Made by a program: the position numbers and the translations under genes
Source: a virus
IMG/VR virus record: IMGVR_UViG_3300009159_008491
Coordinates: 1-64,000 of that record
Length of the DNA stretch: 64,000 nt
Strand: one strand, 5' to 3'
Part shown: piece by piece, positions 1-44,160 of the stretch
Numbering within the stretch: the stretch's first letter is position 1
How the letters are laid out: every line of letters starts with the position of its first letter
The notes under the pieces: generated by a model
Seen by the model: only the letters and a program-made list of their open reading frames with translations
Database searches by the model: none
Told to the model about the DNA's origin: nothing

Positions 1-1309
1 TGCAGGAAGTAGAGGAACATCTGGATCATCCGGAAGTTCTGGTAGTGCAGGTAGTTCAGGTTCTGCAGGTAGCGCAGGATCAAGTGGTAGTGCAGGTAGT
101 TCAGGAAGTTCTGGTGCTAATGGAACATCTGGTTCAGCAGGTAGTGCAGGAACTAGTGGTAGCTCAGGAAGTAGAGGCACATCTGGTTCATCAGGAAGTT
201 CAGGATCAAGTGGTAGTGCAGGTAGTGCAGGTACATCTGGTAGCTCAGGTAGCTCAGGTGGTTCAGGTAGTGCTGGTGCTGATGGTTCATCTGGTACAGC
301 AGGTAGTTCTGGTATATCAGGTATGGATGGTTCTAATAGTGGAAGATGGATATTTACTGACGTAAATGGAACCTCTCCAGTAGATCCGCAGGCAAATAAC
401 TTTGTTTCTAATAATGGTGATGGAAATACTTTAGCTAGTACTTCACAATTATCAATCAATATAGCTTCTCAAGGTGGAGTAAATTATTATTCATGGCTTA
501 GTGCTATGAAGACTTTAAGAGATGTAGGAAATACAGTCTATCTTCAAATTTATGAGGTATCAGACACTAAAAATTTACTTATATGGGAAATAGATACTAT
601 ACAAGATGCTACAACTTATTTTAATATTAATCGTGGTCTTGTATTAGCCGCAAATGGCACGTGGACAAACGATAAAATCTATACTATTTCATTTGTTGCT
701 AACGGATTAAATGGTTCATCAGGAAGTTCAGGGGAAGCTGGATCATCAGGTAGTGCAGGAACTAGTGGTAGCTCAGGAAGTAGAGGCACATCTGGTTCAT
801 CAGGAAGTTCAGGATCAAGTGGTAGTGCAGGTAGTGCAGGTACATCTGGTAGCGCAGGAAGTTCCGGTGCTAATGGTACATCCGGTAGTGCAGGTTCATC
901 TGGTTCTGCAGGAAGTGCAGGTTCTAGTGGTAGTTCAGGTGGCACAGGTACATCAGGTAGTTCAGGAAGTTCTGGTGCTAATGGCACATCAGGTAGTTCA
1001 GGAAGTTCTGGTGCTAATGGCACATCAGGTAGTTCAGGAAGTTCTGGTGCTAATGGCACATCAGGTAGTTCAGGAAGTTCTGGTACATCAGGTTTAGCAG
1101 GAAGTGCAGGTTCTAGTGGTAGTTCAGGTGGCACAGGTACATCAGGTAGTTCAGGAAGTTCTGGTGCTAATGGTACATCAGGTAGTGCAGGTTCATCTGG
1201 CTCTGCAGGTAGTTCAGGTTCATCTGGTAGTTCAGGTGCAAACGGTACTTCCGGTAGTTCAGGAGCATCTTATCAACAAATGTTAATAATAGCCTCATTA
1301 GGAGTATAA
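1..1309 (+). CDS. Collagen-like tail fibre protein (5' partial)
   Basis: The reading frame is open from base 2, so the start lies outside the window; the ATG at 323 is internal. About 435 residues are visible. They form a Gly-X-Y block (residues 1-107), a non-collagenous globular segment (about 108-238, bases 323-713), a second Gly-X-Y block to about base 1267, and a short hydrophobic tail ending in LIIASLGV. X and Y are almost all Ser, Thr or Ala (GSSG, GTSG, GSAG, GANG), with almost no Pro. Phage collagen-like proteins of this type are trimeric fibre shafts, and I infer the same here. The Ser/Thr content makes the shaft a plausible O-glycosylation substrate for the glycosyltransferases starting at 5052. 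Four virion-type paralogues follow on the same strand, 19 bases downstream. The protein family is clear; its place on the virion is inferred. Confidence 0.85.
   Translation, partial: AGSRGTSGSSGSSGSAGSSGSAGSAGSSGSAGSSGSSGANGTSGSAGSAGTSGSSGSRGTSGSSGSSGSSGSAGSAGTSGSSGSSGGSGSAGADGSSGTAGSSGISGMDGSNSGRWIFTDVNGTSPVDPQANNFVSNNGDGNTLASTSQLSINIASQGGVNYYSWLSAMKTLRDVGNTVYLQIYEVSDTKNLLIWEIDTIQDATTYFNINRGLVLAANGTWTNDKIYTISFVANGLNGSSGSSGEAGSSGSAGTSGSSGSRGTSGSSGSSGSSGSAGSAGTSGSAGSSGANGTSGSAGSSGSAGSAGSSGSSGGTGTSGSSGSSGANGTSGSSGSSGANGTSGSSGSSGANGTSGSSGSSGTSGLAGSAGSSGSSGGTGTSGSSGSSGANGTSGSAGSSGSAGSSGSSGSSGANGTSGSSGASYQQMLIIASLGV
140..244 (+). repeat. 105-bp direct repeat, copy A (collagen gene)
   Basis: The 105 bases at 140-244 are identical, read base by base, to those at 749-853. 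Both copies lie in Gly-X-Y coding sequence on either side of the globular domain. The offset is 609 bases, exactly 203 codons, so recombination between the copies would remove or duplicate the globular domain in frame. Confidence 0.85.
749..853 (+). repeat. 105-bp direct repeat, copy B (collagen gene)
   Basis: Second exact copy of the repeat at 140-244, in the second Gly-X-Y block just after the globular domain. The flanking bases differ between the copies, so the identity has defined ends and is more than general collagen redundancy. Confidence 0.85.
947..1081 (+). repeat. 36-bp tandem repeat in collagen block
   Basis: Three full 36-base units (947-982, 983-1018, 1019-1054) and a 27-base partial unit, each coding for GTSGSSGSSGAN. 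Units differ by about one base. A longer 77-base segment covering part of this array (908-984) recurs exactly at 1097-1173, an in-frame offset of 189 bases. The array can expand or contract in 12-residue steps and so change fibre length. Confidence 0.8.
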
Positions 1310-1328
1310 AATATAATATAATAAAAAT

Positions 1329-2234
1329 ATGATATTAGATTCAACAACAGACGCATTAAATGTTTTTTTATCAGGTAATGTGCAAACTTCTCAACTTGAT
1401 GTTTGCTCTGCTTATAATATTATTACTTCAACATCTTTGACTCCTGCTAAAATTCAAAATACCACAAGTGATTTAGCTCCAATAAATATTTTACCTCCTC
1501 CAAGTTCTGGACAACAAACTCAATTAAGATTTTGTTCAATATATAATGCAGATTCAACTAATGCTACTGTTACAATTGAATATACAGGAAATACAGGAAG
1601 ATCTATAATTTTTCTATCAAGTATTGATCCCGGAGACTCAGTTCAATATACACAAAATAGAGGATGGAGAACTTTTGGTGCCATGGGTCAAGAAAGAATA
1701 TTGGGTATGAATGATGCTCCCGGAGAATTAAGATTACCTCCTAATCTTAAACCGGTAGGTGTAACAGATATATTAACTTGTACAAGTGGTACAGATTATG
1801 GTTTTTATTTAGGTAAAGCGGATAGACCTTATTCTAATATAAAAATAAGATATAATGTTACTAATAGTCCCACTTCAATAACTTGGGCAGAAGCTGCTAT
1901 TTATAAAACATTTATAAAATTGGCTTCTGCTACAACAGTTGTTAATTATTGTGGTTTTGTAAGTATTTCAACTGATATTGGTACAACGGGAAATAAAACT
2001 GCAACAATAAATGTTACAGGAATTACAGAAAATGATGATTTATTTCTTGTTATAGGATCTGTTTTTGGGGCTGGTACATTCGCTGTAAGAGCAGGAATAC
2101 CAGATATTATAAGTACAGGTAGTGTTGGGTCAGTTGCAGGAAGTTTAAGACCATCAACAAATACGAGTTTGACATTAACAACGTCAGCAGCTCTTAATCA
2201 TGCTTGGGTTGCTTGGCAAGGATCTCAATGGTAA
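1329..2234 (+). CDS. Virion-type protein, paralogue 1 of 4
   Basis: 301 residues, family not recognised. It is the first of four tandem paralogues. Shared landmarks are the N-terminus D(S/T)TTDxxxV, a central SGTDYxxYLGKADR-like motif, ITWAEAAIYK, a CGFV segment, TGNKT, and GSLRPSTN near the C-terminus. The composition is rich in Thr, Ser, Asn and aromatic residues with no membrane segment or signal peptide, as expected of a beta-rich virion surface protein. It starts 19 bases after the collagen-like gene on the same strand, so I infer a fibre, fibre-tip or decoration protein made late with the fibre. The start is fixed by alignment with the paralogues (MILD). Confidence 0.6.
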   Translation: MILDSTTDALNVFLSGNVQTSQLDVCSAYNIITSTSLTPAKIQNTTSDLAPINILPPPSSGQQTQLRFCSIYNADSTNATVTIEYTGNTGRSIIFLSSIDPGDSVQYTQNRGWRTFGAMGQERILGMNDAPGELRLPPNLKPVGVTDILTCTSGTDYGFYLGKADRPYSNIKIRYNVTNSPTSITWAEAAIYKTFIKLASATTVVNYCGFVSISTDIGTTGNKTATINVTGITENDDLFLVIGSVFGAGTFAVRAGIPDIISTGSVGSVAGSLRPSTNTSLTLTTSAALNHAWVAWQGSQW

Positions 2235-2246
2235 AAAAATATAAAT

Positions 2247-3182
2247 ATGATATTAGATACAACAACGGATTCTATAGAAGTAAAATTAGCAGCCGCACAT
2301 ACAACAAGGGCTTTGCAATTTTATGCTTCATATCATATTATTGATTCAACTAGTTTTATATTTACTCCAACCAAAAATTTCGGTTCAACAAATGGTACAA
2401 CTGCAGTAACAATGGTTCCTGCTCCAACCTCTAGTAAATTAAATCAATTAAGATCTTGTTCAGTTTATAATTGTGATTCAATTGATCATACGGTTACAAT
2501 TCAAATAAATTCATCATCTAATTTGAGAACAGTATATTCTGTTATAATTAAAGTAGGAGAACAAATTCAATTTACACTTTATGAAGGATGGAAAATATTT
2601 AATGTGGATGGAATTTTAAAAACTTCTAGTTCTGTAATTGGGGGTCCTGCAGTAAAACAAAGTATAATACCAAACTTTCAAGGCACTGCAGGAGGTACTT
2701 CACAAACAAGTGGAACAGATTTTGCTTATTATCTAGGAAAAGCAGATAGAAGTTATGACTCTGTAACTGTACAGATAAATGTTACTTCTGCTGTTGTTGG
2801 AGCAATAACATGGGCAGAAGCTGCGATATATAAAGGATACCCATCAATTGGAAGTAATGTAACACTTACAAGATGTGGTTTTGTTGATGTTTCCACTGGC
2901 TCCAATCATGGTGTGAATGCAACTGGTAATAAAACAATCGTTATACCAATAACAGATAAGAATTTATTTGTTGGTGATGATATATGGTTTGTTTTTGGGT
3001 GTGTAGTTGCAACTACAGGTCCAGCTTTCAAACATATAGGTTATGCAGATAATATAGGTTCTGGTATTGTACAAAGTGCAACTGGAAGTTTAAGACCATC
3101 AACAAACTCAAGTATATCATTTACTTTATCTACAACAATATTAACAATATTTGCTGCATGGTACGGAGCACAAAACGTATAA
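2247..3182 (+). CDS. Virion-type protein, paralogue 2 of 4
   Basis: 311 residues, the closest relative of the next gene. Long stretches agree at both protein and DNA level, for example around 2494-2580 against the matching part of the next gene, which suggests recent duplication or gene conversion. It carries the family landmarks: DTTTDSIEV at the N-terminus, SGTDFAYYLGKADR, ITWAEAAIYKGY, CGFVDVSTG and GSLRPSTNSS. Only 12 bases separate it from the previous stop, so the group is probably one transcript. A TATAAATA string overlaps the start codon here and is too close to be its promoter. Function is inferred only from position. Confidence 0.6.
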   Translation: MILDTTTDSIEVKLAAAHTTRALQFYASYHIIDSTSFIFTPTKNFGSTNGTTAVTMVPAPTSSKLNQLRSCSVYNCDSIDHTVTIQINSSSNLRTVYSVIIKVGEQIQFTLYEGWKIFNVDGILKTSSSVIGGPAVKQSIIPNFQGTAGGTSQTSGTDFAYYLGKADRSYDSVTVQINVTSAVVGAITWAEAAIYKGYPSIGSNVTLTRCGFVDVSTGSNHGVNATGNKTIVIPITDKNLFVGDDIWFVFGCVVATTGPAFKHIGYADNIGSGIVQSATGSLRPSTNSSISFTLSTTILTIFAAWYGAQNV

Positions 3183-3186
3183 AAAA

Positions 3187-4122
3187 ATGACATTAGATAC
3201 AACAACAGATTCAATAGAAGTAAGATTAGCAGCCGCTCATACAACTAGAGCTTTGCAGTTTTTTGCTTCTTATACCAACCTTAATGTTTCTAGTGCTACG
3301 AATACTCCAACAAAAAACTTTGGTTCAACAAATGGCACAACTGCAGTAACAATGGTTCCTGCACCAACTTCTGGAGTAATAAATCAACTAAGATTTTGTT
3401 CAGTTTATAATTGCGATTCTGTTGATCATACGGTTACAATTCAAGTAAATTCATCATCTAATTTGAGAACAGTATTTTCTGTTATAATTAAAGTAGGAGA
3501 ACAAATTCAGTTTACACTTGGCGAAGGTTGGAAAATATTCAATGTGGATGGTATTTTAAAAACTTCCAATTCCACTATCGGCACTTCAGCAGTAAAGTCT
3601 GCAGCTTCTATTTTCAATCAACAAGCAAGTGTTAATTCATCATATACTTCAGGTACTGATTATGCTCAATATTTGGGCAAAGCAGATAGGAATTATGATA
3701 CAGTAACAATTCAATTGGATATTCCAAACATAGTTGGTGCAACCATAACATGGGCTGAGGCTGCAATATACAAGGGTTATCCATCCATAGGAAGTAATGT
3801 AACGCTCACAAGGTGTGGTTGGGTGGATATTTCTACTGGAACAAATCATGGTGTTAATAGTACCGGAAATAAAACTATTGTAATTCCAATAATAGATAAC
3901 AATTTATTTGTTGGAGACGAAATTTGGTTTGTTATTGGATATGTTAATACCGGCGGTTCAGGTACATTAAGGATTGGTTCTTTAGGAGACAATATTGGAG
4001 CCGGTTTGGTACAGACAGCCACCGGAAGTTTAAGACCATCAACCAATTCAAGCATATCTTTCGCCATATCTTTAACACGTGCACCAATATTTGTTACATG
4101 GCAAGGTACTCAAAATGTTTAA
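3187..4122 (+). CDS. Virion-type protein, paralogue 3 of 4
   Basis: An upstream ATG at 3151 is in frame but lies inside the previous gene. The ATG at 3187 gives MTLDTTTDSIEV, which matches the N-terminus of paralogue 2 and gives the same length of 311 residues, so I use it. The landmarks are conserved: SGTDYAQYLGKADR, ITWAEAAIYKGYPSIGSNV, RCGWVDISTG and GSLRPSTNSS. Differences from paralogue 2 concentrate around residues 140-160 and near the C-terminus, so those may be the variable surface-exposed parts. Only four bases separate it from the preceding stop codon. Function unknown; probably a virion surface protein. Confidence 0.6.
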   Translation: MTLDTTTDSIEVRLAAAHTTRALQFFASYTNLNVSSATNTPTKNFGSTNGTTAVTMVPAPTSGVINQLRFCSVYNCDSVDHTVTIQVNSSSNLRTVFSVIIKVGEQIQFTLGEGWKIFNVDGILKTSNSTIGTSAVKSAASIFNQQASVNSSYTSGTDYAQYLGKADRNYDTVTIQLDIPNIVGATITWAEAAIYKGYPSIGSNVTLTRCGWVDISTGTNHGVNSTGNKTIVIPIIDNNLFVGDEIWFVIGYVNTGGSGTLRIGSLGDNIGAGLVQTATGSLRPSTNSSISFAISLTRAPIFVTWQGTQNV

Positions 4123-4143: not shown

Positions 4144-5055
4144 ATGGTAATAGACAATACAAACGAAACTATAGAACTTGTTTTAGCTGGTGCAGTAACA
4201 ACTAGCCAAGCAACTTTTACTTGTTCTTTTAATGAAATTTCATCTACAACTTTTACAGGAAATGAAACAAATGGTACAAGTAATAATACCACTGCAGTTA
4301 CATTGATTTCTAGTCCTTCAGCTGGATTTCAAAGACAATTGAGGGAGTTAATAATTGAAAATAATGACACCGCAACTATGACTGTTACCATTAGATATAA
4401 TAATACATCAGTAACAAGAATTATAATGAAGGCAATTATTGATTCTGGTGATAGTTTAACTTATACAGCAGATGGTGGATGGAATTGTAAAAATACAAAT
4501 GGCTCAATTAGGTATTATAATATTCATGTAAATCAAACAGGCAATATTAGAGGTCCTGAATATTTTAATTTAGCTACTTCAGCTAGTAGTGTTTCGCTTT
4601 CAACTACTGTTGTTGGTCAATATTTAGGTAAGGCGGAAAAAGCATACGCTTCAATAGATTTCAGATACCAAGTAGATACGGCAGCTGTTACAATAACTTT
4701 TTGTGAACTTGCTGTGTATAGAATATCAAATAGACTTAGTATAGGAACTCAACAAGTATGGACTAGATTAGGTTATACAGATACATCAGGAATTTGGAAT
4801 AGTACTGGCTTAAAAACAACTAACGTTGCTCTTACAGGATGTAGAACTGGTGATGATTTATATGCAATTTGGGCAAGTAATGCTACAACATCAATGGCAC
4901 CAAGAGGTGGCAACATAGCTGATCCAACATCATCTATTCTACAAACAACAACAAATACTGTTTCAAGTTGGAGGCCTAGTACATCTCCTTTATATCAAGC
5001 AACAAGTTTTACAGCAGCTGCAGCTGCTATATGGTTTAATTGGCAAGGCAATTAA
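4144..5055 (+). CDS. Virion-type protein, paralogue 4 of 4
   Basis: 303 residues and the most divergent paralogue. It keeps the N-terminal frame (VIDNTNETIELVLAGAVTT), a QYLGKAEKAY motif, an ITFCELAVYR segment in place of ITWAEAAIYK, and WRPSTS near the end. Its stop codon (5053-5055) overlaps the stop of the convergent glycosyltransferase (5052-5054) within a single TTAA, so there is no intergenic space at this strand switch and no hairpin terminator is visible. By position it is part of the fibre module. No enzymatic motif is visible. Confidence 0.6.
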   Translation: MVIDNTNETIELVLAGAVTTSQATFTCSFNEISSTTFTGNETNGTSNNTTAVTLISSPSAGFQRQLRELIIENNDTATMTVTIRYNNTSVTRIIMKAIIDSGDSLTYTADGGWNCKNTNGSIRYYNIHVNQTGNIRGPEYFNLATSASSVSLSTTVVGQYLGKAEKAYASIDFRYQVDTAAVTITFCELAVYRISNRLSIGTQQVWTRLGYTDTSGIWNSTGLKTTNVALTGCRTGDDLYAIWASNATTSMAPRGGNIADPTSSILQTTTNTVSSWRPSTSPLYQATSFTAAAAAIWFNWQGN

Positions 5056-7418
5056 ATAAACTTGCTCAATTTATCTATTACTGTATTTGATTTTATAGAT
5101 TTAGTACATTCAAATTGTCTTGAAGTTCCTTTGTGTCTTGGGCACCAATTCCAATCTGATGGATCTAAACGAAAATCATTAAAACAACCATTACATGTAT
5201 TTATTGGATCGTTGACAAATATTCTTTCGCAATCTGTCATTTCACAATTAGGTCTTGAAAATCCACTTATTAAAAATATTTTTTTATCAAGTGCCCACGC
5301 AACCCATGAAAGACCACTTCCAAGACCAATAAACCCTTCAGAATGATATAAAATGTTACATATTTCTTTTATAGATTTATCATTAATTTTAATTACTCCT
5401 TTAGGATTTTTATTTCCCATATAATCATCTGGTTCTTTAGAAAGTAAAAGAACATCATAACCTTTTGATTTTATGTAATCAACAACTTCCTGCCATCCAT
5501 TAGGATTGTTCCAATATTTTGCTTGAGCTGTTGAGTGGTTAGCTATACAAAAATATTTATTTTCTATTGGTCTTTCACTTGGAATAAAATCAATTTTTGG
5601 TTTTACTTCTTTAAAATCTAATCCAAGAATATCTGTTGCTGTTTTTTGTAAATGTTGATCTCTAAAGTTTAAGGGATTTTTACTAGAAACAAATTCATTT
5701 TTATCATCATAAAACCATCCAATAGTAAACATTTTATATAAGTTGTGAACTATGGATCCGGGTTTAACAAATTCTATTTCAGGATAATTTTTTTCAAAGA
5801 AATCATTATGGAATGTAGAACAAATAACTTTTGCATTATGTGTTTTCCTAAATTCATCAACTTGTGGAAACCATGCAATAGTATCTCCTAAGGAAGAAGA
5901 ATCTAAATGTATATATACTCTTTGGTTTTCAAAAGAAGGTTTTAAAATATGTTTTTCATTTTCTACTTTATATTCAATAAAAAAATCTCTATGATATTCT
6001 CTATTTAATTGACCAAACATATTATTTTTTAAAGTCGTTTCATATAAAAGATTTTTTGTTTCTTCATCAAAGAATCTAAATTTCACTTCTGTTTGATCAT
6101 CACATTCTAAATTAATTTTAGGTTCTTTAAAATAGTTTAAGCTAACTTCAACATTTTTTTTCTTTTTGGTTTTACTTAAAATGGGAGATTCTTTATAACC
6201 GTTAAGTAAAATATCTTTAAATTCTGTTTGATTGTTATCAATTTTCATAATATTGTTAGTTGAATTTAATTCTATAAATATTGCTCTGTGGTCTTGGTAA
6301 TTGAAATATATTGGACTTTTACTTTTAATTTTTTCAACAATTTCTTCAAGATTGTTTTTGCCAGATCTATTATTGTTTTGTAGGTGAGTATTATCACAAA
6401 AATAATTGATTATACAATTTATTTTCTTGGCAATATTCAAAATTTTATCACCATTATCAAATGAATTTATTCTTATGAATGCATAATCTAATTCAATAAA
6501 TTCATCTAAGAAAATATCATGGTCAAAAAATAAAACTTTTAATTTTTCTAACTGCTTTTGATCATAATGAAAATTAAAAAATCCAACTTTGCATCTTTTG
6601 TTTTCCCAGTTTAATTTACTTAAATATGTTGATTCGGCAGCTTCGTATACATCATCAAAAAAATCATTTTTTCTTGGGTAAATTAAGTTTAGTTTTTTTC
6701 TTCTTTCTTTTGCTTCTTTGATTAATATTACTTCTCCTCTAATGTTCCAGTTTCTAAAATTTTCTGAATCCCAATGTTGTCTTGCTAAATAAGTTGTTCT
6801 AGGAATTGTTAACCATTTCCCTTTTTCTTCAAGGTTGATAAGCCACTGAGCATCATTTGATGTACAAACATCACTGTCTTCATGAACTTTAAAATTTAAA
6901 TTTGGTATATTTCTAAATATTCTTAGATAACCAAAAATTCCACTTCTATCAGGTGTCAATCTTTCAAAGGCCTCTAAAAAAGAATCATTATCTCTTGAAA
7001 TATAAACATTGTTTATAAATGAATTAAGAAAGTTATCTTTTGAATCAGGAAGGTTATCTTGATGTTTATTGGCATTAAAATGTAGAAAAATTACATCTGG
7101 AAACTTTTTAAAATAATAAACTATTTTTTCAAATGTATTTGGTAATATCTTATCATCTCCGTCAATAGGACAAACAATATCTCCCTTTGCGTGTAATTGA
7201 GGGTTCCACCAAATTTCTTTTTTATAATTAGGCTCTACGATTTTTATTCTTTTATCATGGTTGGCTAATGCTATAAGTTTTTCTTTTGTTTTATCAGTAG
7301 AAAAATCATCAGCTATAATCCATTCCCAATCTTTATAAGATTGACTTAAAATAGATTCAGATAATTCTTTGATGTAATTTTCTGAGTTGTAAAAAGAAGT
7401 TACGATTGATAATTTCAT
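5052..7418 (-). CDS. GT2 fused to TibC-like (BAHT) O-heptosyltransferase
   Basis: 788 residues in two enzymatic parts. Residues 1-230 are a GT-A family 2 glycosyltransferase: LSIVTSFYNSENYI at the N-terminus, a DDFSTD nucleotide-sugar motif near 37-42, and a PIDGDD metal-binding motif at 84-89. Residues 500-788 are a GT-B domain of the GT9/autotransporter-heptosyltransferase type, with HLDSSSLGDTIAWFP at about 504-518, SGLSWVAWAL near 701-710, and four cysteines at 742, 745, 759 and 771 around WNWCPRHKGTSRQFEC. In TibC-type bacterial heptosyltransferases, which put heptose on autotransporter serines, four such cysteines bind iron. The middle 240-490 is unassigned. It is last in a minus-strand glycan operon and abuts the Ser-rich fibre module. 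A role in virion protein O-glycosylation is inferred. Confidence 0.85.
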   Translation of the reverse strand: MKLSIVTSFYNSENYIKELSESILSQSYKDWEWIIADDFSTDKTKEKLIALANHDKRIKIVEPNYKKEIWWNPQLHAKGDIVCPIDGDDKILPNTFEKIVYYFKKFPDVIFLHFNANKHQDNLPDSKDNFLNSFINNVYISRDNDSFLEAFERLTPDRSGIFGYLRIFRNIPNLNFKVHEDSDVCTSNDAQWLINLEEKGKWLTIPRTTYLARQHWDSENFRNWNIRGEVILIKEAKERRKKLNLIYPRKNDFFDDVYEAAESTYLSKLNWENKRCKVGFFNFHYDQKQLEKLKVLFFDHDIFLDEFIELDYAFIRINSFDNGDKILNIAKKINCIINYFCDNTHLQNNNRSGKNNLEEIVEKIKSKSPIYFNYQDHRAIFIELNSTNNIMKIDNNQTEFKDILLNGYKESPILSKTKKKKNVEVSLNYFKEPKINLECDDQTEVKFRFFDEETKNLLYETTLKNNMFGQLNREYHRDFFIEYKVENEKHILKPSFENQRVYIHLDSSSLGDTIAWFPQVDEFRKTHNAKVICSTFHNDFFEKNYPEIEFVKPGSIVHNLYKMFTIGWFYDDKNEFVSSKNPLNFRDQHLQKTATDILGLDFKEVKPKIDFIPSERPIENKYFCIANHSTAQAKYWNNPNGWQEVVDYIKSKGYDVLLLSKEPDDYMGNKNPKGVIKINDKSIKEICNILYHSEGFIGLGSGLSWVAWALDKKIFLISGFSRPNCEMTDCERIFVNDPINTCNGCFNDFRLDPSDWNWCPRHKGTSRQFECTKSIKSNTVIDKLSKFI

Positions 7419-7419
7419 G

Positions 7420-8349
7420 TTATATTAATTTACTTACTGTGGTACTTTCTTCTAAAAATTTTTGTGTATTTGAATCATATAAATCTACATCCATATAAAG
7501 CATATTGTTTCCGAATATTTTTACATAATGTGTGTTTTTTTTAAGTTTAATTAAATTAAAATTTCCACTTTCTAACCAAAAATTATATACATTGCTATCT
7601 TCTATTATATTAAAAATCATAGGTTCTTTTGAATAGTTATAACATAAAACATAATAATCGCCATTGTGTGGAAAAACTATGCCCCAGTAAAGAAAATCTC
7701 CTGAGCATAATCCGGTTGAAAAATTTTCATTAGTAGCTATTAAATTAAAATCTTTCTTATATACATTATTCTTAAGAAATCTAGTGTGTAAAAATTCTTC
7801 ACATAAAATATCTAAATTTTCTAATAATTTATTTTCGTCATATAAAAAGTCAGAATAATTTAATTTATTTAAGTTAATACATAAATAATTACCACTCATC
7901 CATTCTTGATTAAAGTATCCAACAGCATTATAATTAGAACTTCTTAAAATATTTAAATTTTCATTAAACTCTTTTATGCTTGATATTTTACTATCGTATT
8001 CAACATAATGTACAACATCGTATTTTAAAGTTTTTGCCATTGTGAATCCATTAAATAAAATTCTCATTACAGCTAAAAAAGTATTTTGTCTAGCCGGTAA
8101 CTTAGATGCAAGATCTACTAATTGACTAGAAAAACTTGAATATCCAATATATTTTTTATCAGTTAATAATTTATTTTCTTTATCATATATGAAGTAATCA
8201 CATTTTCTTAAAATTATTTCTTCTGGAGCTATATGAGAACTAATCATTACTTCTTTTCCATTTTCTTTGAAAAAATTAACTAAATCTAACAATAGATCTT
8301 TTTTTTCTTTCGTATTTGAATAGTCTCCTATTAAAATTAAATCTTTCAT
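7420..8349 (-). CDS. Glycan-operon protein, possible glycosyltransferase
   Basis: 309 residues, not recognised. The N-terminus (MKDLILIGDYSNTKEKKD) and the segment VVHYVEYDS near residue 110 look like an alpha/beta fold with an acidic pair, as in GT-A enzymes, but no canonical DxD or sugar-binding motif is convincing. The C-terminal 100 residues are beta-rich and may be a separate binding domain. The gene sits one base from the fusion glycosyltransferase downstream and one base from the acyltransferase upstream, so it is co-transcribed with glycan genes and probably acts on the same product. Confidence 0.5.
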   Translation of the reverse strand: MKDLILIGDYSNTKEKKDLLLDLVNFFKENGKEVMISSHIAPEEIILRKCDYFIYDKENKLLTDKKYIGYSSFSSQLVDLASKLPARQNTFLAVMRILFNGFTMAKTLKYDVVHYVEYDSKISSIKEFNENLNILRSSNYNAVGYFNQEWMSGNYLCINLNKLNYSDFLYDENKLLENLDILCEEFLHTRFLKNNVYKKDFNLIATNENFSTGLCSGDFLYWGIVFPHNGDYYVLCYNYSKEPMIFNIIEDSNVYNFWLESGNFNLIKLKKNTHYVKIFGNNMLYMDVDLYDSNTQKFLEESTTVSKLI

Positions 8350-8350
8350 A

Positions 8351-8902
8351 CTAACTCAAATAAATGTTTTTTCTTTTTTTAATAAATTTGATTGGTGTTC
8401 CAGCAACAACATCAAATGGATTTGTATTTTTGTTTACTAATGAATTTGAGCCAACTGAAGTAGCAAATTCTAAAACAGTTTCAGGTAAAATAACAGTATT
8501 GCATCCTATAACTACGTGTTTTCTTATTAGAATATCACCAGTTTTAACTTTTTTAAATTCATCAGCAACAACGGAATTTGTCATATACCCTTCCGTATAA
8601 TCATCATTAGATGTATACAATATGCAACGAGCAGAAGTACAAGTATAATCTTCTAATGTTATATTACCACTATTACCATAATAATAACAACCTGCAGAAA
8701 TATGAACATTATTACCTATAGATATTTTACTATCTTTTCCTGCAATCAAAATACATTGTGAATCTATTCTTACGTTATTACCTATAGTGATGTTTTGAGG
8801 GTTATGAAATATAACATCGTTAGAAATAAAAACATTTTCACCAATAGTTAAATTTGATTCCAAAAGTTCTTCTCTAGAATAATTTTTGAATGTTCTGATC
8901 AT
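8351..8902 (-). CDS. Hexapeptide-repeat acyltransferase (WbbJ/CysE-like)
   Basis: 183 residues of left-handed beta-helix hexapeptide repeats (LTIGENVFISNDVIF, ITIGNNVRID, ISIGNNVHISAG, VVIGCNTVILPE) ending in VVAGTPIKFIKKR, the usual C-terminal signature of sugar O-acetyltransferases. It probably transfers an acetyl or similar acyl group from acyl-CoA to a sugar or sugar nucleotide, as a trimer in the cytoplasm. The start overlaps the stop of the DegT-like gene by four bases, which implies translational coupling. With a DegT-type protein beside it, N-acylation of an amino sugar is one reasonable role. The fold is certain; the substrate is unknown. Confidence 0.85.
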   Translation of the reverse strand: MIRTFKNYSREELLESNLTIGENVFISNDVIFHNPQNITIGNNVRIDSQCILIAGKDSKISIGNNVHISAGCYYYGNSGNITLEDYTCTSARCILYTSNDDYTEGYMTNSVVADEFKKVKTGDILIRKHVVIGCNTVILPETVLEFATSVGSNSLVNKNTNPFDVVAGTPIKFIKKRKNIYLS

Positions 8903-9528
8903 TGTTTATAGATTTCAAATTTTGATAAATCAGGATAAGGCAATTCTAAATCAGGATTGTTTTTTGGACTTCCGTCTATATTATAAAATTGATTCATTAA
9001 CAAACATCCTCTTGCAGCTAATTCAGGCATCATATAAAAATTCCAACCAAGCATGTCAAAGTGATCATCATGATATGAACACTCTCTCCTACCGCTATAC
9101 CTAGCTCTTTTAAACCATAAATAAGCTTCGTAGTTATCAGTTAGTATTGCACCGCCTTTTGATAATTTAAAGTGCTTATAGGGGCCTGTAAAAGAAATAC
9201 ACATATGTTGTCCGGGTATGTACATATCTGATGTAAATCTAAGTGCTGAATCCCAAACATTAGTAGGTTCTAATTGATAAGCCCCTTTAATTGTTTTGCC
9301 TTTTACTGGTTTAAATTTAACTTTAGCTCCAGCATGAATAATTTCACAAGGAACAGAAGGATAAGTTCTTGATGGAATTGTTATTTCTGTGTCTTTGACT
9401 TTTTCAAACATTAGTGCTAAGAATAAAGCATTGCTTTGGTTGTCAACAGTAACACAATAAGGTGCCCCAGTGTAATCACACAGCATTTTTTCAAAATCTT
9501 CAGTAATTTTATAAATTCCGTTTGCCAT
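8899..9528 (-). CDS. Compact DegT/DnrJ/EryC1-like aminotransferase homologue
   Basis: 209 residues, about half the usual 370-400 of this PLP-dependent sugar aminotransferase family. It retains the large-domain landmarks: TVDNQSNALFLAL (phosphate-binding start), IPSRTYPSVP, the pyridine-contacting Asp in VWDSALR, and the Schiff-base lysine region SFTGPYKHFKLSKGGAILT. The C-terminal small domain is missing; the protein ends just after MMPELAARG. A sibling of the same compact design lies at 38169-38780, and the two share the tail YPDLSxxxI, so this is a stable short form rather than a random truncation. It may be an aminotransferase acting with a partner, or a sugar-binding or isomerase-like derivative. 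Confidence 0.75.
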   Translation of the reverse strand: MANGIYKITEDFEKMLCDYTGAPYCVTVDNQSNALFLALMFEKVKDTEITIPSRTYPSVPCEIIHAGAKVKFKPVKGKTIKGAYQLEPTNVWDSALRFTSDMYIPGQHMCISFTGPYKHFKLSKGGAILTDNYEAYLWFKRARYSGRRECSYHDDHFDMLGWNFYMMPELAARGCLLMNQFYNIDGSPKNNPDLELPYPDLSKFEIYKQ

Positions 9529-9529
9529 A

Positions 9530-12500
9530 TTATAAATTATATTTAGTTCTATTGTATTCTTTATTTCTTAATAAATCGTTCAACTCTAATCCAAATTGAG
9601 TAAACTCTCCATTTCTAGCGATTCCGTATTGATAGTACCATGAATAATCTAAGTGATAAATCTTTGGATCATCATATTTCTCGTTTATTCTTTTTGTACC
9701 TTCAAATTCATTTTTCCAAGGATTCTCATTTTCAGTCATATTTTCTAAAAGAAAATCTTTATTCCAAAAGCAAGCATTGTGTGAAAGTAGATATTCACTA
9801 TTAATCTTTTGTTTTAAAACTCTTTTATCATTGATAAAATAATTAGTTTGTTCTAGATCATAATTAAAGAATGTTTTTTCGTGAATTTTTAAACAGTTCC
9901 ATTCAAAGTGTTTCATTAAATACAAACTATCTTCAAAAGTCTTTTTATCTATTTTTTTGTGTAACCACATATCATCTTGAATATACAAGATGTATTTAGT
10001 TTTTATTTTAGTTAAAATATCAATCAATCTATTACTGAAACCAGATGAATCATGTGATCTAATTGTATTTAATTGTTTAATTCTGCTATCGCTAAAATTT
10101 AATTTTTCTTCTTCATTACAGAAATAAATGTCCCAGTTTAATGACCAATCCCAATTTTCTTTAAATGAATAATACCAACCTTTCCATAGAAAATTATATT
10201 TGTCACACGTTTGAACTATTACAGTAATATCGTCATTCTCAAAATTTACCGGTAATGAATTTTTTTCATGTAAAATATATCCATCTTTAAATTTATAATC
10301 TATGTTTGATATACTAGGATATTGTAATGCATAAGGTCTACTGAAAATTCCCTTTTTAAAATCAGTGATAAAATTATTATACCATAAATCAGAAACGTCC
10401 CAAGGAGTATTTTCAAATTTTGATTTGAAATAATCGTATTTATCTTTTAAAATTAAAATACAATGTGCTTCAGAAAGTGTATTTGTCAAATAAAAATCCT
10501 CCTCTACTTTTTCATGATCTAAATTAGGTATCTTTTTCCCAAAACTTATATAGGCTAAATCATGTTTTTTCGCATATTGGTAAGCTCTAAAAATAGTTTC
10601 AGACATTTCTTTTTCTGAAAACTGTAAAATACTATCACACTCATTTAAAAGTATTGCATCCACATCATCATTTAAACCTTCTTCTATTCCTTGTCTATGA
10701 GAAAGGTAACAACCGTAATGTCCGGGGCCTAATAAGTAATCTCCCGGTGATTCAGAAATTTGACTTGGTCTATTACAATTTTCTTTAGGTGGCAATCCCT
10801 TAAATAAGGGATTTATAATTTGTTGATAGGTGAAACCATAATTTTCTAATGTTCTTAAAGAGTTGATAGAAGATATTTCTCTTTCCGATTCAACATTGTT
10901 CAGAAGATGAACTATTTTAATTTTTGGTTTTTTTTCTGCTTTAAAAATTAGAATACTTTCAATATCAATATTTCTATCTTCTTCAACTTCAAATCCACAA
11001 CGAATTAATTTGTTCTTAATTTTATTTTCATAGTCAGAATGTGATCCTGCAAATGCGTGAACTTCTCCGGTAATGAATTTGACATTATTTCTTAAATAAC
11101 CTTCATCTATGGTTTCAAAGAAAGGAAACTCTCCTCCTTCACAATCAATTTTAAGATAATCTATTTTTTCAATGCTATATTCTTGAATTAAAGAATTGGC
11201 ATCAATTGATTTAACTTTTATAGAATTATCTTCAAATTTATATCCAGAAAGATTTTCACTTTGTTTAAATATAGTATGTATACTAGATGAATCACCAACG
11301 AAGAAATCAACTTCTCCTCTGTTATAATCTATTGCATATTGTATAGGTATAATTTCTTTGAATTGAAAAGTATTCTTTTTTAAATTTTCAAAGTTTTTTG
11401 GTTCTGGTTCTACACTATAAACTTTAGAAGCCCCTTGATCAAGAGCATATAAACTGAGAAATCCTAAATTAGATCCAATATCTAAAACCACATCCCCTTT
11501 TTTAATTCCTTTATAATCATTTCTTATGTAAACTTCATAGTAAGTAAACCATGAGGATTGATCAAAATCTTCATGAGAAATCATAATTTCTTTACTTTCT
11601 ACTTTTGGTGTTAATTTATGTTCGAAATTATTCTCAAAAATTACTTTATCAAAGTATGAGATATTATTTTCTTTATCAAAAACTTGAACCAGAAAACCAT
11701 TAAATGTATATCTTGAAGCATTGGAACTAAACCAAAAACTTGTTCCTGATTGAAAAATAAAATCAAGAACATAATTTGTCAAAAGATTATAACTGTCTTT
11801 TAAAATAATGTTTAATTTTTTCCCATTTAGTTCAGGACAATGCAAACATTTAACATCAAATTTATGATCTATTTCATTATAAGAAACATCAATGTAATTA
11901 TATTTGAGTCGTAGGTTTAATGTTTGTTTTATTAACTCTAAATTAGTATTAGTATCAAGTAAATAATTTACATTGTCAAATTTGTAAAAATAATTTTGAT
12001 AAACATCTAAATTATATAATAAGATAGGGATCTTCCATCCTATTGATTCTCTCAATACTAAAGGCATTGTTTCTTTATCACCATTTTGGCCTCTGGAAGT
12101 AAAAAGAAACAAATCCATACAAGAGTAAAAATTATCAGTATCATTTCTTTCGCCCCAAATTTTGCAATTTGAAGGTATATTATTAAGCAATGGTTCCCAA
12201 TAAAATTTAAAATTATCTGCTTGATTTCCTAGAAAATGAAATTGTACAGTATCATCAAAATATTTAGCTAATTCAAATATTTCAGCCTGATTTTTTCTTG
12301 GAGTAAATAAACCTACATTTAAAACATGTTTCTTTTTAGGGTCCAATCCTAACTTTAATAATCCTTCTTCTCTATTTGGTCTTTCCTTGTATTCAATAGG
12401 GTATTCTGCTAAGTATTTAGGAACATTTATATTTTTATATTGTTCTATTTGCCAATTGCTTACAAAGAAAAAAGCATCCGGAAAATATACTTTTTTATTA

Positions 12501-12871
12501 TCAGGATCAAATGAAGAATCATGGCTTGTTTCAAAGATCTTATATTTTCTATTTTTTGTATAAATTAAATCTGAAATTTCACTTGGTAAAAAATATTCTG
12601 GTATTTCTTCTAAATGAATAAAATCAGGATTAATTTTGTTAATTAAATTTATTAAATCTTCTTTTTTATTTTCTCCTAGAGTTATAAAATGTTGATTATC
12701 AAGAAGTTGTTCAATTTTATTTCTTTGTACTACTAATACCCCACCAGTTATATTTTCATATTCAATGCAAAAGATTTCTAAATCATTTTTTAGAATTTCT
12801 ATTTTTTTAACAAGATATTGAGGTAAGCCACCAGTAGATAAATGTGGAGCAATAAATATAATCTTCTTCAT
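9530..12871 (-). CDS. Four-domain GT4-FkbM-GT25-like-GT-A fusion protein
   Basis: 1113 residues with at least four modules. Residues 1-320 are a GT-B family 4-like glycosyltransferase (IFIAPHLSTGGLPQYLV at the start; NVGLFTPRKNQAEIF near 185). About 340-440 is a beta-rich linker. Residues 455-645 are an FkbM-type SAM methyltransferase (VLDIGSNLGFLSLYA, YSVEPEP, IDYLKIDCEGGEF). About 650-860 is GT25-like (GPGHYGCYLSHRQGIEEGL, but NECDS where GT25 enzymes carry an acidic EDD-type motif). Residues 880-1113 are GT-A-like, starting TVIVQTCDKY and holding YIQDDMW at 963-969. One chain could thus perform several consecutive steps on one glycan. It is the first gene of a five-gene operon, with a 79-base upstream gap that probably holds the promoter. 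Confidence 0.8.
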   Translation of the reverse strand: MKKIIFIAPHLSTGGLPQYLVKKIEILKNDLEIFCIEYENITGGVLVVQRNKIEQLLDNQHFITLGENKKEDLINLINKINPDFIHLEEIPEYFLPSEISDLIYTKNRKYKIFETSHDSSFDPDNKKVYFPDAFFFVSNWQIEQYKNINVPKYLAEYPIEYKERPNREEGLLKLGLDPKKKHVLNVGLFTPRKNQAEIFELAKYFDDTVQFHFLGNQADNFKFYWEPLLNNIPSNCKIWGERNDTDNFYSCMDLFLFTSRGQNGDKETMPLVLRESIGWKIPILLYNLDVYQNYFYKFDNVNYLLDTNTNLELIKQTLNLRLKYNYIDVSYNEIDHKFDVKCLHCPELNGKKLNIILKDSYNLLTNYVLDFIFQSGTSFWFSSNASRYTFNGFLVQVFDKENNISYFDKVIFENNFEHKLTPKVESKEIMISHEDFDQSSWFTYYEVYIRNDYKGIKKGDVVLDIGSNLGFLSLYALDQGASKVYSVEPEPKNFENLKKNTFQFKEIIPIQYAIDYNRGEVDFFVGDSSSIHTIFKQSENLSGYKFEDNSIKVKSIDANSLIQEYSIEKIDYLKIDCEGGEFPFFETIDEGYLRNNVKFITGEVHAFAGSHSDYENKIKNKLIRCGFEVEEDRNIDIESILIFKAEKKPKIKIVHLLNNVESEREISSINSLRTLENYGFTYQQIINPLFKGLPPKENCNRPSQISESPGDYLLGPGHYGCYLSHRQGIEEGLNDDVDAILLNECDSILQFSEKEMSETIFRAYQYAKKHDLAYISFGKKIPNLDHEKVEEDFYLTNTLSEAHCILILKDKYDYFKSKFENTPWDVSDLWYNNFITDFKKGIFSRPYALQYPSISNIDYKFKDGYILHEKNSLPVNFENDDITVIVQTCDKYNFLWKGWYYSFKENWDWSLNWDIYFCNEEEKLNFSDSRIKQLNTIRSHDSSGFSNRLIDILTKIKTKYILYIQDDMWLHKKIDKKTFEDSLYLMKHFEWNCLKIHEKTFFNYDLEQTNYFINDKRVLKQKINSEYLLSHNACFWNKDFLLENMTENENPWKNEFEGTKRINEKYDDPKIYHLDYSWYYQYGIARNGEFTQFGLELNDLLRNKEYNRTKYNL

Positions 12872-12950
12872 GGTATAAAAGTAACAAAAATAAATTTATT
12901 TTGACCAATAAATTTACTATAAAATTACTTAAAAAAATTATAAAAAAGTA

Positions 12951-13832
12951 TTATTCTGTAATACCGAGAGAAATTTGTGAAAATTCTTGATTAAAGTTTG
13001 TAATTGATCTTTGCTCCCTCACATCAATATTTCCATATTCAAAAGCAGATTTTCTTGTAAATAGATTATATTGCTTATAGATTAAATTTTGATCGTTGAA
13101 ATAAGTTAAAATTCCTGTTTGTAAATCTCTTGAGGAGTTTCCATAAAGAGCATAGGAAAGAGTTTTAATGGTTTGATCAACCATTTCAATTTCAACATAA
13201 AAAGGATCAAAAAAAGTATTAGAAATTAATATTTTTTGGTTTTTTACACCAAGATCTACTTTCACATTGTTTGAAATTAAACTTCCTTGATCCGGAGTCA
13301 AAGTTAAAAATATTATACTTCCAGCAGGGTCTAAAACATAAGTGGTTGCACCTTGATTTACTGTATTATTATTAACGTTTATACTTACTAAATCACTTGA
13401 AGTTATAATTCTGGTAAGATTATTTATTTTAACCCCATTTGTATCAAAATATTCTATTTGGTACCCTACTAATGAATTGTTTCTAGAAAATTGAAGAGAA
13501 GGAATAACAATGCCCTTTTTTGATATATTTAACTGATTATTATCGTTTGTTACAACATAAGAACAGTCTAAAATGGTAGTTTGAAAAGTTTTTGGTTTAA
13601 TTAAAATACTATAATAACCTAATTTATTGAATACATTAGCTGGTAAACGTAATTTATACATTCCATCGGCTCCAATTAATTTTCTTAAATCTGCATTGGT
13701 TATAGCGTTAAAAAGTGGTCTTAATTGTACGTCCCCAATTTCTTCTCTTGAGGGACTATAAGCATAAAGGATGTCCACATCATCTATTGTGACATCAGCT
13801 AATTTATTTACACCATATAATCCAACTGCCAT
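12951..13832 (-). CDS. Hypothetical structural protein (tail/baseplate region)
   Basis: 293 residues, not recognised. The sequence is beta-rich (alternating polar and hydrophobic residues with many Asn, Thr and Ile) with no catalytic motif, signal peptide or membrane segment. It is last in the minus-strand tail/baseplate series and directly precedes the glycan operon. A 38-base gap separates it from the 842-residue gene upstream. By position it is probably an outer baseplate or fibre-attachment protein. Confidence 0.5.
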   Translation of the reverse strand: MAVGLYGVNKLADVTIDDVDILYAYSPSREEIGDVQLRPLFNAITNADLRKLIGADGMYKLRLPANVFNKLGYYSILIKPKTFQTTILDCSYVVTNDNNQLNISKKGIVIPSLQFSRNNSLVGYQIEYFDTNGVKINNLTRIITSSDLVSINVNNNTVNQGATTYVLDPAGSIIFLTLTPDQGSLISNNVKVDLGVKNQKILISNTFFDPFYVEIEMVDQTIKTLSYALYGNSSRDLQTGILTYFNDQNLIYKQYNLFTRKSAFEYGNIDVREQRSITNFNQEFSQISLGITE

Positions 13833-37188: not shown

Positions 37189-38172
37189 TTATCTATAAGA
37201 TTTTTTTCCTTGTAAAACATCTAACCAATGATCACACATTTCATGTAAAAGTGTTTCAAAATAATACTCTGGTTCCCAATTTAATATTTTTCTTGCTTTT
37301 GAAGAATCTCCTTTTAAATAAGGTAATTCTTCTGGCCTTAAATATTTTGCATCTTGTTTTATAACAATAGGATCAATATCAAGATAATTACAAACAATGT
37401 TGCACATTTCTCTTACCGTATGTGTTTGCATTGTAGAAATTACAAAATCATCCGGTTCATTATGATTTAACATTAAATGCATTGCTTTCACATAATCTTT
37501 TGAATGTCCCCAATCACGATATGAGTCCATGTTTCCTAAAAATAATTCTTTTTGTAATCCAAGTTTAATTGAACATAATCCTTTTGCAATTTTACTTGAA
37601 ACGAAATTACTACCTCTTCTTGGCGATTCATGATTAAATAGAATTCCATTAGAAATAAATAAGTTATAAGCCCTTCTATAATGCCTAGTGATATTATAAC
37701 CAAAGACCTTGGAACATCCATATGGAGAAACAGGATTCATAATGGTTTTTTCTCTTTGAAATCCATCTTCATCTATGGTTAAACCAAACATCTCAGAAGA
37801 ACTTGCTTGATAAAATTTTGCTTCAGGACAATTTTCTTTATAGGCTTCTAAAACATTTAACACGCCAAGAGCATTTATTTCTACTGTTAAATTTGGAATA
37901 TCACTAGATATTCTCACATGACTTTGTGCAGCTAAATTATAAATTTCATCAGGCTTTATTTTTGACAATAAATTATTTAAAGAATATTGATCAATTAGAT
38001 CGCCATAATGTATATTTATTTTATCTTCTATATGTTCTAATCTATAAGATTGATTTTCAGATACAGAGTGTCTTCTAACTATCCCATGAACCTCGTATCC
38101 TAAATTTAAAAGATGTTCAGAAAGATAACTTCCATCTTGACCTGATATTCCAGTTATAAAAGCTTTTTTCAT
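37189..38172 (-). CDS. gmd: GDP-mannose 4,6-dehydratase
   Basis: 327 residues, extended SDR fold. Rossmann motif GISGQDG (8-14), RRHSVSENQSYRLEH (the GDP-mannose dehydratase-specific loop), SSSEMFG (124-130) and the catalytic Tyr151/Lys155 pair in SPYGCSKVFGYN. It also carries NHESPRRGSNFVSSKI and RDWGHSKDYVKAM, both family signatures. It converts GDP-mannose to GDP-4-keto-6-deoxymannose, the entry to GDP-fucose, rhamnose or perosamine. It overlaps the compact DegT-like gene by four bases. A fucosyltransferase-like protein (42608) and a short SDR (47496) in the same cluster fit a 6-deoxyhexose pathway. It is last in the 15-kb cluster. Confidence 0.93.
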   Translation of the reverse strand: MKKAFITGISGQDGSYLSEHLLNLGYEVHGIVRRHSVSENQSYRLEHIEDKINIHYGDLIDQYSLNNLLSKIKPDEIYNLAAQSHVRISSDIPNLTVEINALGVLNVLEAYKENCPEAKFYQASSSEMFGLTIDEDGFQREKTIMNPVSPYGCSKVFGYNITRHYRRAYNLFISNGILFNHESPRRGSNFVSSKIAKGLCSIKLGLQKELFLGNMDSYRDWGHSKDYVKAMHLMLNHNEPDDFVISTMQTHTVREMCNIVCNYLDIDPIVIKQDAKYLRPEELPYLKGDSSKARKILNWEPEYYFETLLHEMCDHWLDVLQGKKSYR

Positions 38173-38780
38173 ATATTTTTTTTAAAAATTTTCATTTGTG
38201 TTAAATCGGGCCAATCGGTGAATACCCATTGTCTTGGTTTCTTCTCAATCGCTTCAGGTAATTTTTCAATACCCATTTTAGCAGTTTCAGGTGTCATATA
38301 ATAATGGTAACCTACTGATTCAATATTTTGCTCTCTCCAAGGTATGTTAGGAATTCTTCCGTCATAAGACATTTTTTTTAAACTTATTGCAGCAGTTTCA
38401 TCATTTGTTAATATTATACCCCCTCTTCCTAAGTTCAAATGCTTTTGAAATTGAAAACTAATACACATAAAAGTATTCGGTATATAACTATCTTTTTTCC
38501 ATAAAACAGCGGAATCAATTATGTTTTCTGTAACATAATAAAAATTACTCCATTCCTCATCCCTCCAATCTAAATCAATTTTAAGTTTGTGTGATAAAAA
38601 TGGAATTGAAAGATAGGTTCTTTTTGGTGTACTAATTTTTTTTGCTTCTGTATACAATAAACATAATTCTATTCCATGTGTACAACTATCTACAGCAATA
38701 GCGTATTTTGAACCAAAGAATTCAGCAATTTTACTTTCAAATTCAGAAACAACATTAAAATCAACTTTTTTTAATATCAT
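38169..38780 (-). CDS. Compact DegT/DnrJ/EryC1-like aminotransferase homologue
   Basis: 203 residues, the second half-length DegT-like protein of the window. It keeps AVDSCTHGIELCLL, TPKRTYLSIPF, the Asp of IIDSAVLW and the lysine segment SFQFQKHLNLGRGGIILT, then stops after YYMTPETAKMGIEKL with a short tail WPDLTQMKIFKK. The C-terminal domain of normal family members is absent, as in the copy at 8899-9528. Its four-base overlap with GDP-mannose dehydratase suggests it acts on GDP-4-keto-6-deoxymannose; a perosamine-synthase-like reaction is one inference. The missing domain makes the activity uncertain. Confidence 0.75.
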   Translation of the reverse strand: MILKKVDFNVVSEFESKIAEFFGSKYAIAVDSCTHGIELCLLYTEAKKISTPKRTYLSIPFLSHKLKIDLDWRDEEWSNFYYVTENIIDSAVLWKKDSYIPNTFMCISFQFQKHLNLGRGGIILTNDETAAISLKKMSYDGRIPNIPWREQNIESVGYHYYMTPETAKMGIEKLPEAIEKKPRQWVFTDWPDLTQMKIFKKNI

Positions 38781-38784
38781 ATTT

Positions 38785-39324
38785 TCATTTTTTTACACAT
38801 TCAATATTTAAACTTATTAATACACCATTTTCTTTGTCCATATGAGGAATATACGCCTGAGAATGATCATCATAATTAGCATGTTCTGTGTTCCTCCAAT
38901 CATATCTTTCTATTTGATAAAATCCACTTTGTTCTAGTAAGTCAAATAGTGAATTAAAATCATATGTGGTTTTATGGTATATGTTTGAATTTCCCATTGA
39001 CATTTTTCCATAAAGTGGACCTAAAATTTGATTTAAAGAAACAATTTTGTTTAAATATAATTCTGACATTTTTTCAAAATCAGGAACTGCAATTCTTAAT
39101 GTTTTTTCCGGCTTTAAAACTCTTTTCCACTCTTTTAAAATATCTAAAATTTCGACTCTATCAAAATATTCTATAACATGTGATGAGTAAATTAAATCTA
39201 CAGAATCATCATCAAATGGCAATTTTGTAATATCATTATAATCTAAATGATCATAGGTTCCACCATCTATATGAATCCAATCTTTGCCAAAATTTCTCCA
39301 GCCACACCCTAAATGTAATTTCAT
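38785..39324 (-). CDS. SAM-dependent methyltransferase (type 11-like)
   Basis: 179 residues. It opens with KLHLGCGWRNFGKDWIHID, the SAM-binding motif I of small class I methyltransferases, followed by LPFDDDSVDLIYSSHVIEYF (motif around the acidic loop) and EWKRVLKPEKTLRIAVPD. This layout is common in polysaccharide clusters, where the enzymes methylate sugars. The target is unknown. The gene is one base from the CDP-alcohol phosphatidyltransferase stop-start junction upstream and four bases from the DegT-like gene downstream. Confidence 0.8.
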   Translation of the reverse strand: MKLHLGCGWRNFGKDWIHIDGGTYDHLDYNDITKLPFDDDSVDLIYSSHVIEYFDRVEILDILKEWKRVLKPEKTLRIAVPDFEKMSELYLNKIVSLNQILGPLYGKMSMGNSNIYHKTTYDFNSLFDLLEQSGFYQIERYDWRNTEHANYDDHSQAYIPHMDKENGVLISLNIECVKK

Positions 39325-39325
39325 A

Positions 39326-40048
39326 TTATTTTTTTTTAGTTAAATTATTTATAACATTTATTATAAAACAAATTGTTATAATTATAAAACTAATAAAAAA
39401 AGATAATTTTTGCAACCCTAAAATTGATAAAAATATTAATATTGTAAAAGTTCCTGTTCCAAAATATTTTATTAATTCAATTGATTTGAAAATTTTTTTG
39501 TTTTCTATTTTGTAGAAGAAATAATAAAAAGAATAATAACAAATATTTTTAGAAAAAAAGTAATATCTATAAAACAATCCATTTTTTTGATTTTCTACTG
39601 ATTTACTTTTAAAAGAATTAGTTTTCTCAAAATTACTTACAGCATCAAGTGTTCCTATGTGTAGTAACATAGGAAATATGAATAGCAATATAGAGAAAAA
39701 AGCATAATAATCAGATTTTAAAAAAAATGTCAATAAGAATAGAAAGCCAACAATGTGATCTTTGTTCCAATCATATACTGCTCCAAAAAAAGAACATTCA
39801 TTATACTTTCTTGCAACTTGCCCATCAACACAATCTAAAACATAATAAATAAAATAAAAAATTACTGCAATTATTAAATGATTATATAAATAAAATACAG
39901 GTGATAAAAATGAAAAAAATAATGAAATTGTGGTTATGTTAGATGGCGATAAACCCATTTTATGTAATGGGTCTACAAGTATATTAGCTATTTTTCTAAA
40001 TATATATAAATCTAAAGGGTCTTCTAGGTTTTTGTTGTAACTTGGCAT
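39326..40048 (-). CDS. CDP-alcohol phosphatidyltransferase family protein
   Basis: 240 residues, membrane protein with several hydrophobic helices. It carries the complete family signature D-x2-D-G-x2-A-R-x8-G-x3-D-x3-D: D72, D75, G76, A79, R80, G89, D93, D97. The enzymes join a CDP-linked moiety to an alcohol at the membrane, making for example phosphatidylglycerol phosphate, phosphatidylinositol or polymer precursors. The N-terminal NLEDPLDLYIFRKIA region fits the amphipathic lead. It overlaps the next methyltransferase by one base and lies two genes from a sulfatase-fold transferase. A phage-encoded lipid or head-group step is unusual. Substrates cannot be told from sequence. Confidence 0.9.
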   Translation of the reverse strand: MPSYNKNLEDPLDLYIFRKIANILVDPLHKMGLSPSNITTISLFFSFLSPVFYLYNHLIIAVIFYFIYYVLDCVDGQVARKYNECSFFGAVYDWNKDHIVGFLFLLTFFLKSDYYAFFSILLFIFPMLLHIGTLDAVSNFEKTNSFKSKSVENQKNGLFYRYYFFSKNICYYSFYYFFYKIENKKIFKSIELIKYFGTGTFTILIFLSILGLQKLSFFISFIIITICFIINVINNLTKKK

Positions 40049-41831: not shown

Positions 41832-41895
41832 ATTTGATTAATATTATAATACTTTATAATAATAAGTAATTTTTAATCAAATGTAAATTTTTATT

Positions 41896-43597: not shown

Positions 43598-43603
43598 AAA
43601 TTA

Positions 43604-44158: not shown

Positions 44159-44160
44159 AA

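Follow-up and report, generated by a model that had tools for sequence, protein, structure and literature searches.

A glycosyltransferase of 788 residues encoded by a phage combines an N-terminal GT2 domain with a C-terminal domain of the TibC type. It probably O-glycosylates Ser and Thr residues of the phage's own Gly-X-Y fibers, likely with heptose, and its GT2 half may extend the sugar. The open reading frame has exactly the boundaries originally predicted and lies in the 64,000-nt stretch of DNA analyzed here (the window), which belongs to a 93,819-bp IMG/VR virus record with phage features, e.g., a gp25-like baseplate protein. The features of the locus are collected in Table 1.

Table 1. 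Features of the fusion gene and its neighborhood (positions in the window)
Feature	Position	Strand	Basis
Collagen-like Gly-Ser/Thr-X fiber protein, 5′ end beyond contig	2..1309	+	PF01391 E 3e-42; PHROG tail fiber
Beta-rich ~300-aa fiber-associated paralogue 1	1329..2234	+	Paralogue alignment; low-confidence AF2 model
Beta-rich ~300-aa paralogue 2	2247..3182	+	Paralogue alignment
Beta-rich ~300-aa paralogue 3	3187..4122	+	Paralogue alignment; ORF listed from TTG at 3151
Beta-rich ~300-aa paralogue 4	4144..5055	+	Paralogue alignment; convergent with fusion gene, 4-nt overlap
GT2-TibC-type fusion glycosyltransferase, 788 aa	5052..7418	-	ORF; Pfam/NCBIfam/PDB matches; AF2, Foldseek
TibC-type (BAHT-like) domain, fusion residues 444-785	5064..6089	-	TIGR04414; pLDDT mostly 82-98
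Iron-finger segment, Cys742/745/759/771	5106..5195	-	Aligned to TibC Cys339/342/358/370
Asp512, counterpart of TibC catalytic base Asp110	5883..5885	-	Alignment; role from PMC4358343
GT2 domain, fusion residues 4-128, DGDD motif near residues 87-90	7035..7409	-	PF00535 E 8e-20; sequence
309-aa protein of unassigned fold	7420..8349	-	blastp; similar domains inside L022, L063 TibC-type polypeptides
Hexapeptide-repeat sugar O-acyltransferase-like protein	8351..8902	-	PF00132; WcaF-like
Short DegT-like (PLP) aminotransferase homologue, 209 aa	8899..9528	-	PF01041 E 5e-15
GT1 + FkbM methyltransferase multidomain protein	9530..12871	-	PF00534, PF05050

The fusion of a GT2 domain to a TibC-type domain, as originally predicted, was borne out by profile searches. 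Pfam recovered the N-terminal GT2 domain, and the C-terminal half matched the NCBIfam profile TIGR04414 with an E value of 8.7e-88 and 294.8 bits, above the curated cut-off of 200. A phmmer search of the PDB with the fusion protein matched TibC (4rb4, E 3e-54); a PHROG search gave no convincing family over the C-terminal half. The AF2 model was confident for that half and mostly of low pLDDT for the N-terminal half, where the alignment is shallow. Foldseek placed TibC on top of the matches to the C-terminal model (E 1.6e-31, TM 0.81 by target), and the superposition on 4rap_D covered 355 columns at 2.7 Å, including the N-terminal barrel.

In TibC, Asp110 is the catalytic base, Thr226, Lys230, and Trp305 are donor residues, Cys339, Cys342, Cys358, and Cys370 are the iron ligands, and Arg286 contacts adenine, its Ala mutant being inactive (Yao et al. 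2014, PMC4358343). Alignment with the fusion revealed an Asp at the position of the catalytic base and conservation of the donor residues as T630, K634, and W705. The four-cysteine ending recognized in the original prediction aligns with the iron ligands, and these Cys residues are invariant in 59/59 phage and 12/12 bacterial members of the clade described below. Because the C-terminal half both superposes on TibC and aligns with it, the four Cys are predicted to cluster in space and to form an iron finger as in TibC. Arg286 is replaced by Ile686 in the fusion, and by Val, Ile, or Thr in most clade members, versus Arg in 13/13 canonical enzymes. The Pro300 position is occupied by Gly700, and the thumb-tip residues Phe265 and Val266 align with Tyr666-Met667.

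A 55-row IQ-TREE phylogeny separated the canonical autotransporter enzymes and TibC from the phage and phage-like bacterial enzymes with a support of 100/100. The bacterial members of the phage-like clade come mostly from methanotrophs, and even sampling of Gammaproteobacteria added almost none. A methanotroph group falls among the phage sequences, with weak support for the surrounding forks. The two clades have different neighbor genes. In 10 of the 12 bacterial loci of the phage-like clade, the enzyme gene adjoins one for a (GTS)n/(GSS)n protein that is secreted or resembles a lipoprotein; of the two others, one has a homologue with Ser runs (L106), and in one a protein with GSS repeats is encoded at a distance of about 5 kb (L090/L099). 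No (Gly-Thr-Ser)n-type neighbor was found in 38 canonical or 18 GT9 loci, an enrichment with Fisher p-values of 6e-9 and 2e-6, respectively, which are too small because the loci are related. Conversely, SLS-like repeats adjoin the enzyme in 16/39 canonical loci versus 0/12 bacterial loci of the phage-like clade. The methanotroph proteins encoded next to TibC-type genes at L087-L089 and L104-L109 are secreted and carry long (Gly-Thr-Ser)n-type runs, a pairing not described in the literature searched. Across the methanotroph family, 7/8 genomes with the clade enzyme had collagen-like matches, versus 89/229 others (p 0.008). This co-occurrence is weak because such matches are common in the family (96/237 genomes); with the enzyme present in only 8 genomes, the repeat proteins evidently do not need it.

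Among 50,697 phage records, the C-terminal half was matched in four, one from Microcystis phage Mel-JY01 and the others from huge phages, including two records that are alike. Environmental phages often encode related enzymes, the IMG/VR count being at least 571 places, and the best 80 of these included stand-alone forms (~385 aa) and fused forms (690 to 1,312 aa). GT1-type domains were found at the N terminus of 9 of the 10 fusions scanned. Among the matches listed, the GT2 fusion is confined to this phage and a sister lineage and is rarer than both the GT1-TibC fusions and the stand-alone forms. The Mel-JY01 homologue lies next to a Gly-Ser/Thr fiber; its product (WWT39291.1; L004:4747-8430, plus strand) is annotated only as an FkbM methyltransferase, and we found GT1 and TibC-type domains in it. 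The enzyme is not unique to this phage: the domain is already known from phages in databases, where UniProt names a protein of an uncultured Caudovirales phage (A0A6J5SVC1) "Glycosyltransferase Aah/TibC." TibC-type enzymes in phages and heptosylation of Gly-Ser/Thr fibers are not described in the literature searched, which leaves most subscription journals outside.

The link between the enzyme and collagen-like genes in phages is strong for fusions and weak for stand-alone forms. Fusion forms occur within about 8 kb of Gly-Ser/Thr collagen-like genes in 14 of 19 clusters, and stand-alone forms near strong collagen repeats in 2 of 38; collagen-like matches anywhere in the record were found in 24/28 records. 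Terminase-based control contigs were mostly short fragments and were left out in favor of a within-contig position test on 14 phage contigs. The TibC-type gene was nearer the collagen-like gene than most ORFs, at 7 kb or less in 12 of the 14 contigs, with a combined p of 1e-5. This value and the Fisher p-values above are optimistic owing to kinship of the loci and to contig breaks inside repeats; the distance test is also influenced by the several contigs that begin within a collagen gene. Phage glycan and fiber genes may also be clustered for other reasons.

In the window, the collagen-like fiber ORF is truncated by the start of the contig. In the 100 Gly-X-Y triplets counted, X is Ser or Thr in 83 and Y in 64. 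The enzyme gene had been described as abutting the fiber gene set. The two gene sets are indeed convergent, but the end of the fiber gene is 3.7 kb away, with four Ser/Thr-rich, beta-rich paralogues placed between; a PDB search with a low-confidence AF2 model of one of them gave no trustworthy match. On the minus strand, the fusion gene is the last of five glycan genes, in the order GT1-FkbM, short DegT, hexapeptide transferase, 309-aa protein, and fusion. They come after a run of large minus-strand ORFs that are probably virion-associated or structural, with gaps of -4 to 79 nt. The 309-aa protein had no Pfam, NCBIfam, or PHROG match. The DegT-like gene has copies 86 to 88% identical just downstream of the TibC-type fusions in L050 and L063, and GT1 homologues of the GT1-FkbM protein accompany the TibC-type gene in most loci (70 of those examined). 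In the sister phage (L307-L309), the fusion and the beta-rich paralogues are kept and the upstream sugar genes differ.

Other genes of the record were noted in passing. A second short DegT-like homologue (38169-38780, minus strand, 203 aa) has, like that at 8899-9528, a Lys-Gly-Gly stretch resembling a PLP site. It lies in a second glycan island (37189-44748, minus strand) encoding GDP-mannose 4,6-dehydratase-like, methyltransferase, CDP-alcohol phosphotransferase-like, and sulfotransferase proteins. Beyond the window, a large terminase-like ORF of 913 aa (L002:4587-7328, minus strand; contig 68587-71328) seems to be split by an intein. Long fiber-like proteins with GNGxxNxIxGxxYSTI-type repeats (L002:7715-11920 and 11992-13419, both minus strand) are another possible Ser-rich virion substrate.

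The analysis establishes which domains the fusion has, that its catalytic residues are conserved, its fold, its clade, and the pairing of the clade with Gly-Ser/Thr repeat genes; from sequence and gene context, we infer the substrate, the donor sugar, and the role of the GT2 domain. The fusion would act in the cytosol as a protein O-glycosyltransferase, on a branch of the TibC superfamily apart from that of the autotransporter enzymes. During infection, its C-terminal half would attach a sugar to Ser and Thr of the fiber Gly-X-Y repeats, before or during virion assembly; the likeliest sugar is heptose, supplied by ADP-heptose. The GT2 domain and the products of the neighboring GT1/FkbM, acyltransferase, and DegT-like genes would probably extend or trim the glycan. 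For the fiber as substrate, as originally proposed, the argument comes from comparative genomics, which suggests it through the pairing of the enzyme with Gly-Ser/Thr repeat genes. That the GT2 domain extends the sugar, so that a single protein both adds the first sugar and elongates it, is a guess; the GT2 fusion is limited as described above.

Heptose is the likeliest donor but not a certain one, given the loss of the adenine contact and the failure to detect HldE2 in this phage. Among the matches listed, HldE2-like genes adjoin the enzyme in 23/59 phage clusters and HldE1-like genes in 21/59. Their best families are TIGR02199 and TIGR02198, with scores below the equivalog cut-offs, and they come directly after stand-alone TibC-type forms. 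In this phage and its sister, no HldE1/HldE2-like ADP-heptose gene lies next door, nor is there an HldE2-like gene anywhere in the contig or its 217-kb sister. A TibC-like enzyme retuned to a nucleotide sugar from the phage's own island is somewhat unlikely. It would fit this lack of an HldE2-like gene, the loss of Arg286 in most of the clade, the replacement of Pro300 by Gly, and the GMD-like, DegT-like, acyl-, and methyltransferase genes of the phage. Against it stand the retention of Thr226, Lys230, and Trp305, the abutting HldE1/HldE2-like genes in roughly one phage cluster in three, and the fact that Gram-negative hosts usually make ADP-heptose. The acceptor might likewise be another virion protein, such as the beta-rich 300-aa proteins, the baseplate, or head fibers, rather than the Gly-X-Y fiber. 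We consider this unlikely: the Ser/Thr-rich paralogues do lie directly between the enzyme and fiber genes, and stand-alone phage forms usually have no strong collagen repeat nearby, but we detected those paralogues in no contigs other than the window and its sisters, while in bacteria and other fusion phages it is Gly-Ser/Thr repeats that keep appearing next to the enzyme.

Two further readings place the target on the host. A GT9-like heptosyltransferase acting on LPS or another host surface, changing the envelope against superinfection, is very unlikely. The GT9 profile PF01075 does match the fusion above its gathering score (33 versus 22 bits), and WaaC is among the Foldseek matches. WaaC scores far lower than TibC, however (E 6e-8, TM 0.47), LPS heptosyltransferase models reach only 15 to 21 bits against cut-offs of at least 185 (TIGR02193, 21 versus 185; RfaQ and RfaC models, 16 and 15), and the fusion has the iron finger. 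The C-terminal half thus matches more than GT9 enzymes alone, and an LPS identity is disfavored in sequence and fold. Glycosylation of host autotransporter adhesins, as by TibC and Aah, is suggested by the name of the NCBIfam family and is likewise very unlikely. The enzyme belongs to a sister clade with another gene neighbor and is encoded among probable late virion genes, and no autotransporter with strand-loop-strand repeats lies beside the fusion gene. The clade split and the lack of an SLS-repeat partner in all 12 bacterial loci of the clade thus disfavor this reading. Because neither Arg286 nor an autotransporter partner was found, we do not class the fusion as an autotransporter heptosyltransferase.

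Glycosylation of the Gly-X-Y fiber, our preferred reading, has a wider counterpart to which we give an even chance: a second, unrecognized TibC branch in phages and some bacteria would act on Gly-Ser/Thr-X repeats, with phages glycosylating their own fibers, some of them with their own ADP-heptose synthesis genes. What appears new is the separate clade with its Gly-Ser/Thr partners, and the enzyme is expected to work like a TibC-type enzyme. Collagen-like fibers are common in phages, yet little is known about their modification; the pairing of the enzyme with such fibers in phages and with repeat proteins in bacteria suggests a specific and testable way for virions to acquire O-glycans. If true, this would correct an overly broad family name, autotransporter heptosyltransferase, and would suggest why some phages have heptose-synthesis genes.

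Several known proteins share the TibC-type domain. A0A6J5SVC1, Mel-JY01 WWT39291.1, and the huge-phage enzymes of LR756501 and LR756504 have it in common with the fusion, but those of Mel-JY01 and LR756501 carry an N-terminal GT1 instead of GT2, and that of LR756504 is stand-alone; no functional study on any of the four was found in the literature searched. The methanotroph enzymes belong to the same clade and are also paired with Gly-Ser/Thr repeats, but they are stand-alone and chromosomal, and their partner is secreted rather than a virion fiber. Bacterial autotransporter heptosyltransferases (BAHT) are dodecamers that transfer from ADP-heptose. TibC and Aah (TIGR04414; PDB 4RAP, 4RB4) share with the fusion the fold, including the N-terminal barrel region, the catalytic Asp, the Thr/Lys/Trp donor residues, and the four-Cys iron finger. 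Unlike them, the fusion lies in a separate clade (100/100), has lost Arg286 and has Gly for Pro300, is without an autotransporter partner, is fused to GT2, and is phage-borne. In Clostridioides difficile, SgtA, encoded beside the collagen-like BclA3, attaches a sugar to Thr (or Ser) residues in the collagen repeat (PMC7157674), an example of a transferase modifying the repeats of a collagen-like protein encoded next to it. As in the proposed phage case, the transferase gene adjoins the collagen-like gene, but SgtA adds beta-O-GlcNAc from UDP-GlcNAc and acts on the spore coat (PMC7157674), and it is not known to be a TibC-type enzyme. According to the account of Freeman 2023 given in PMC12619734, a mycobacteriophage glycosylates its own virion proteins, at the C termini of capsid and tail-tube proteins rather than on a fiber; the likeness lies in virion proteins being glycosylated by the phage itself.
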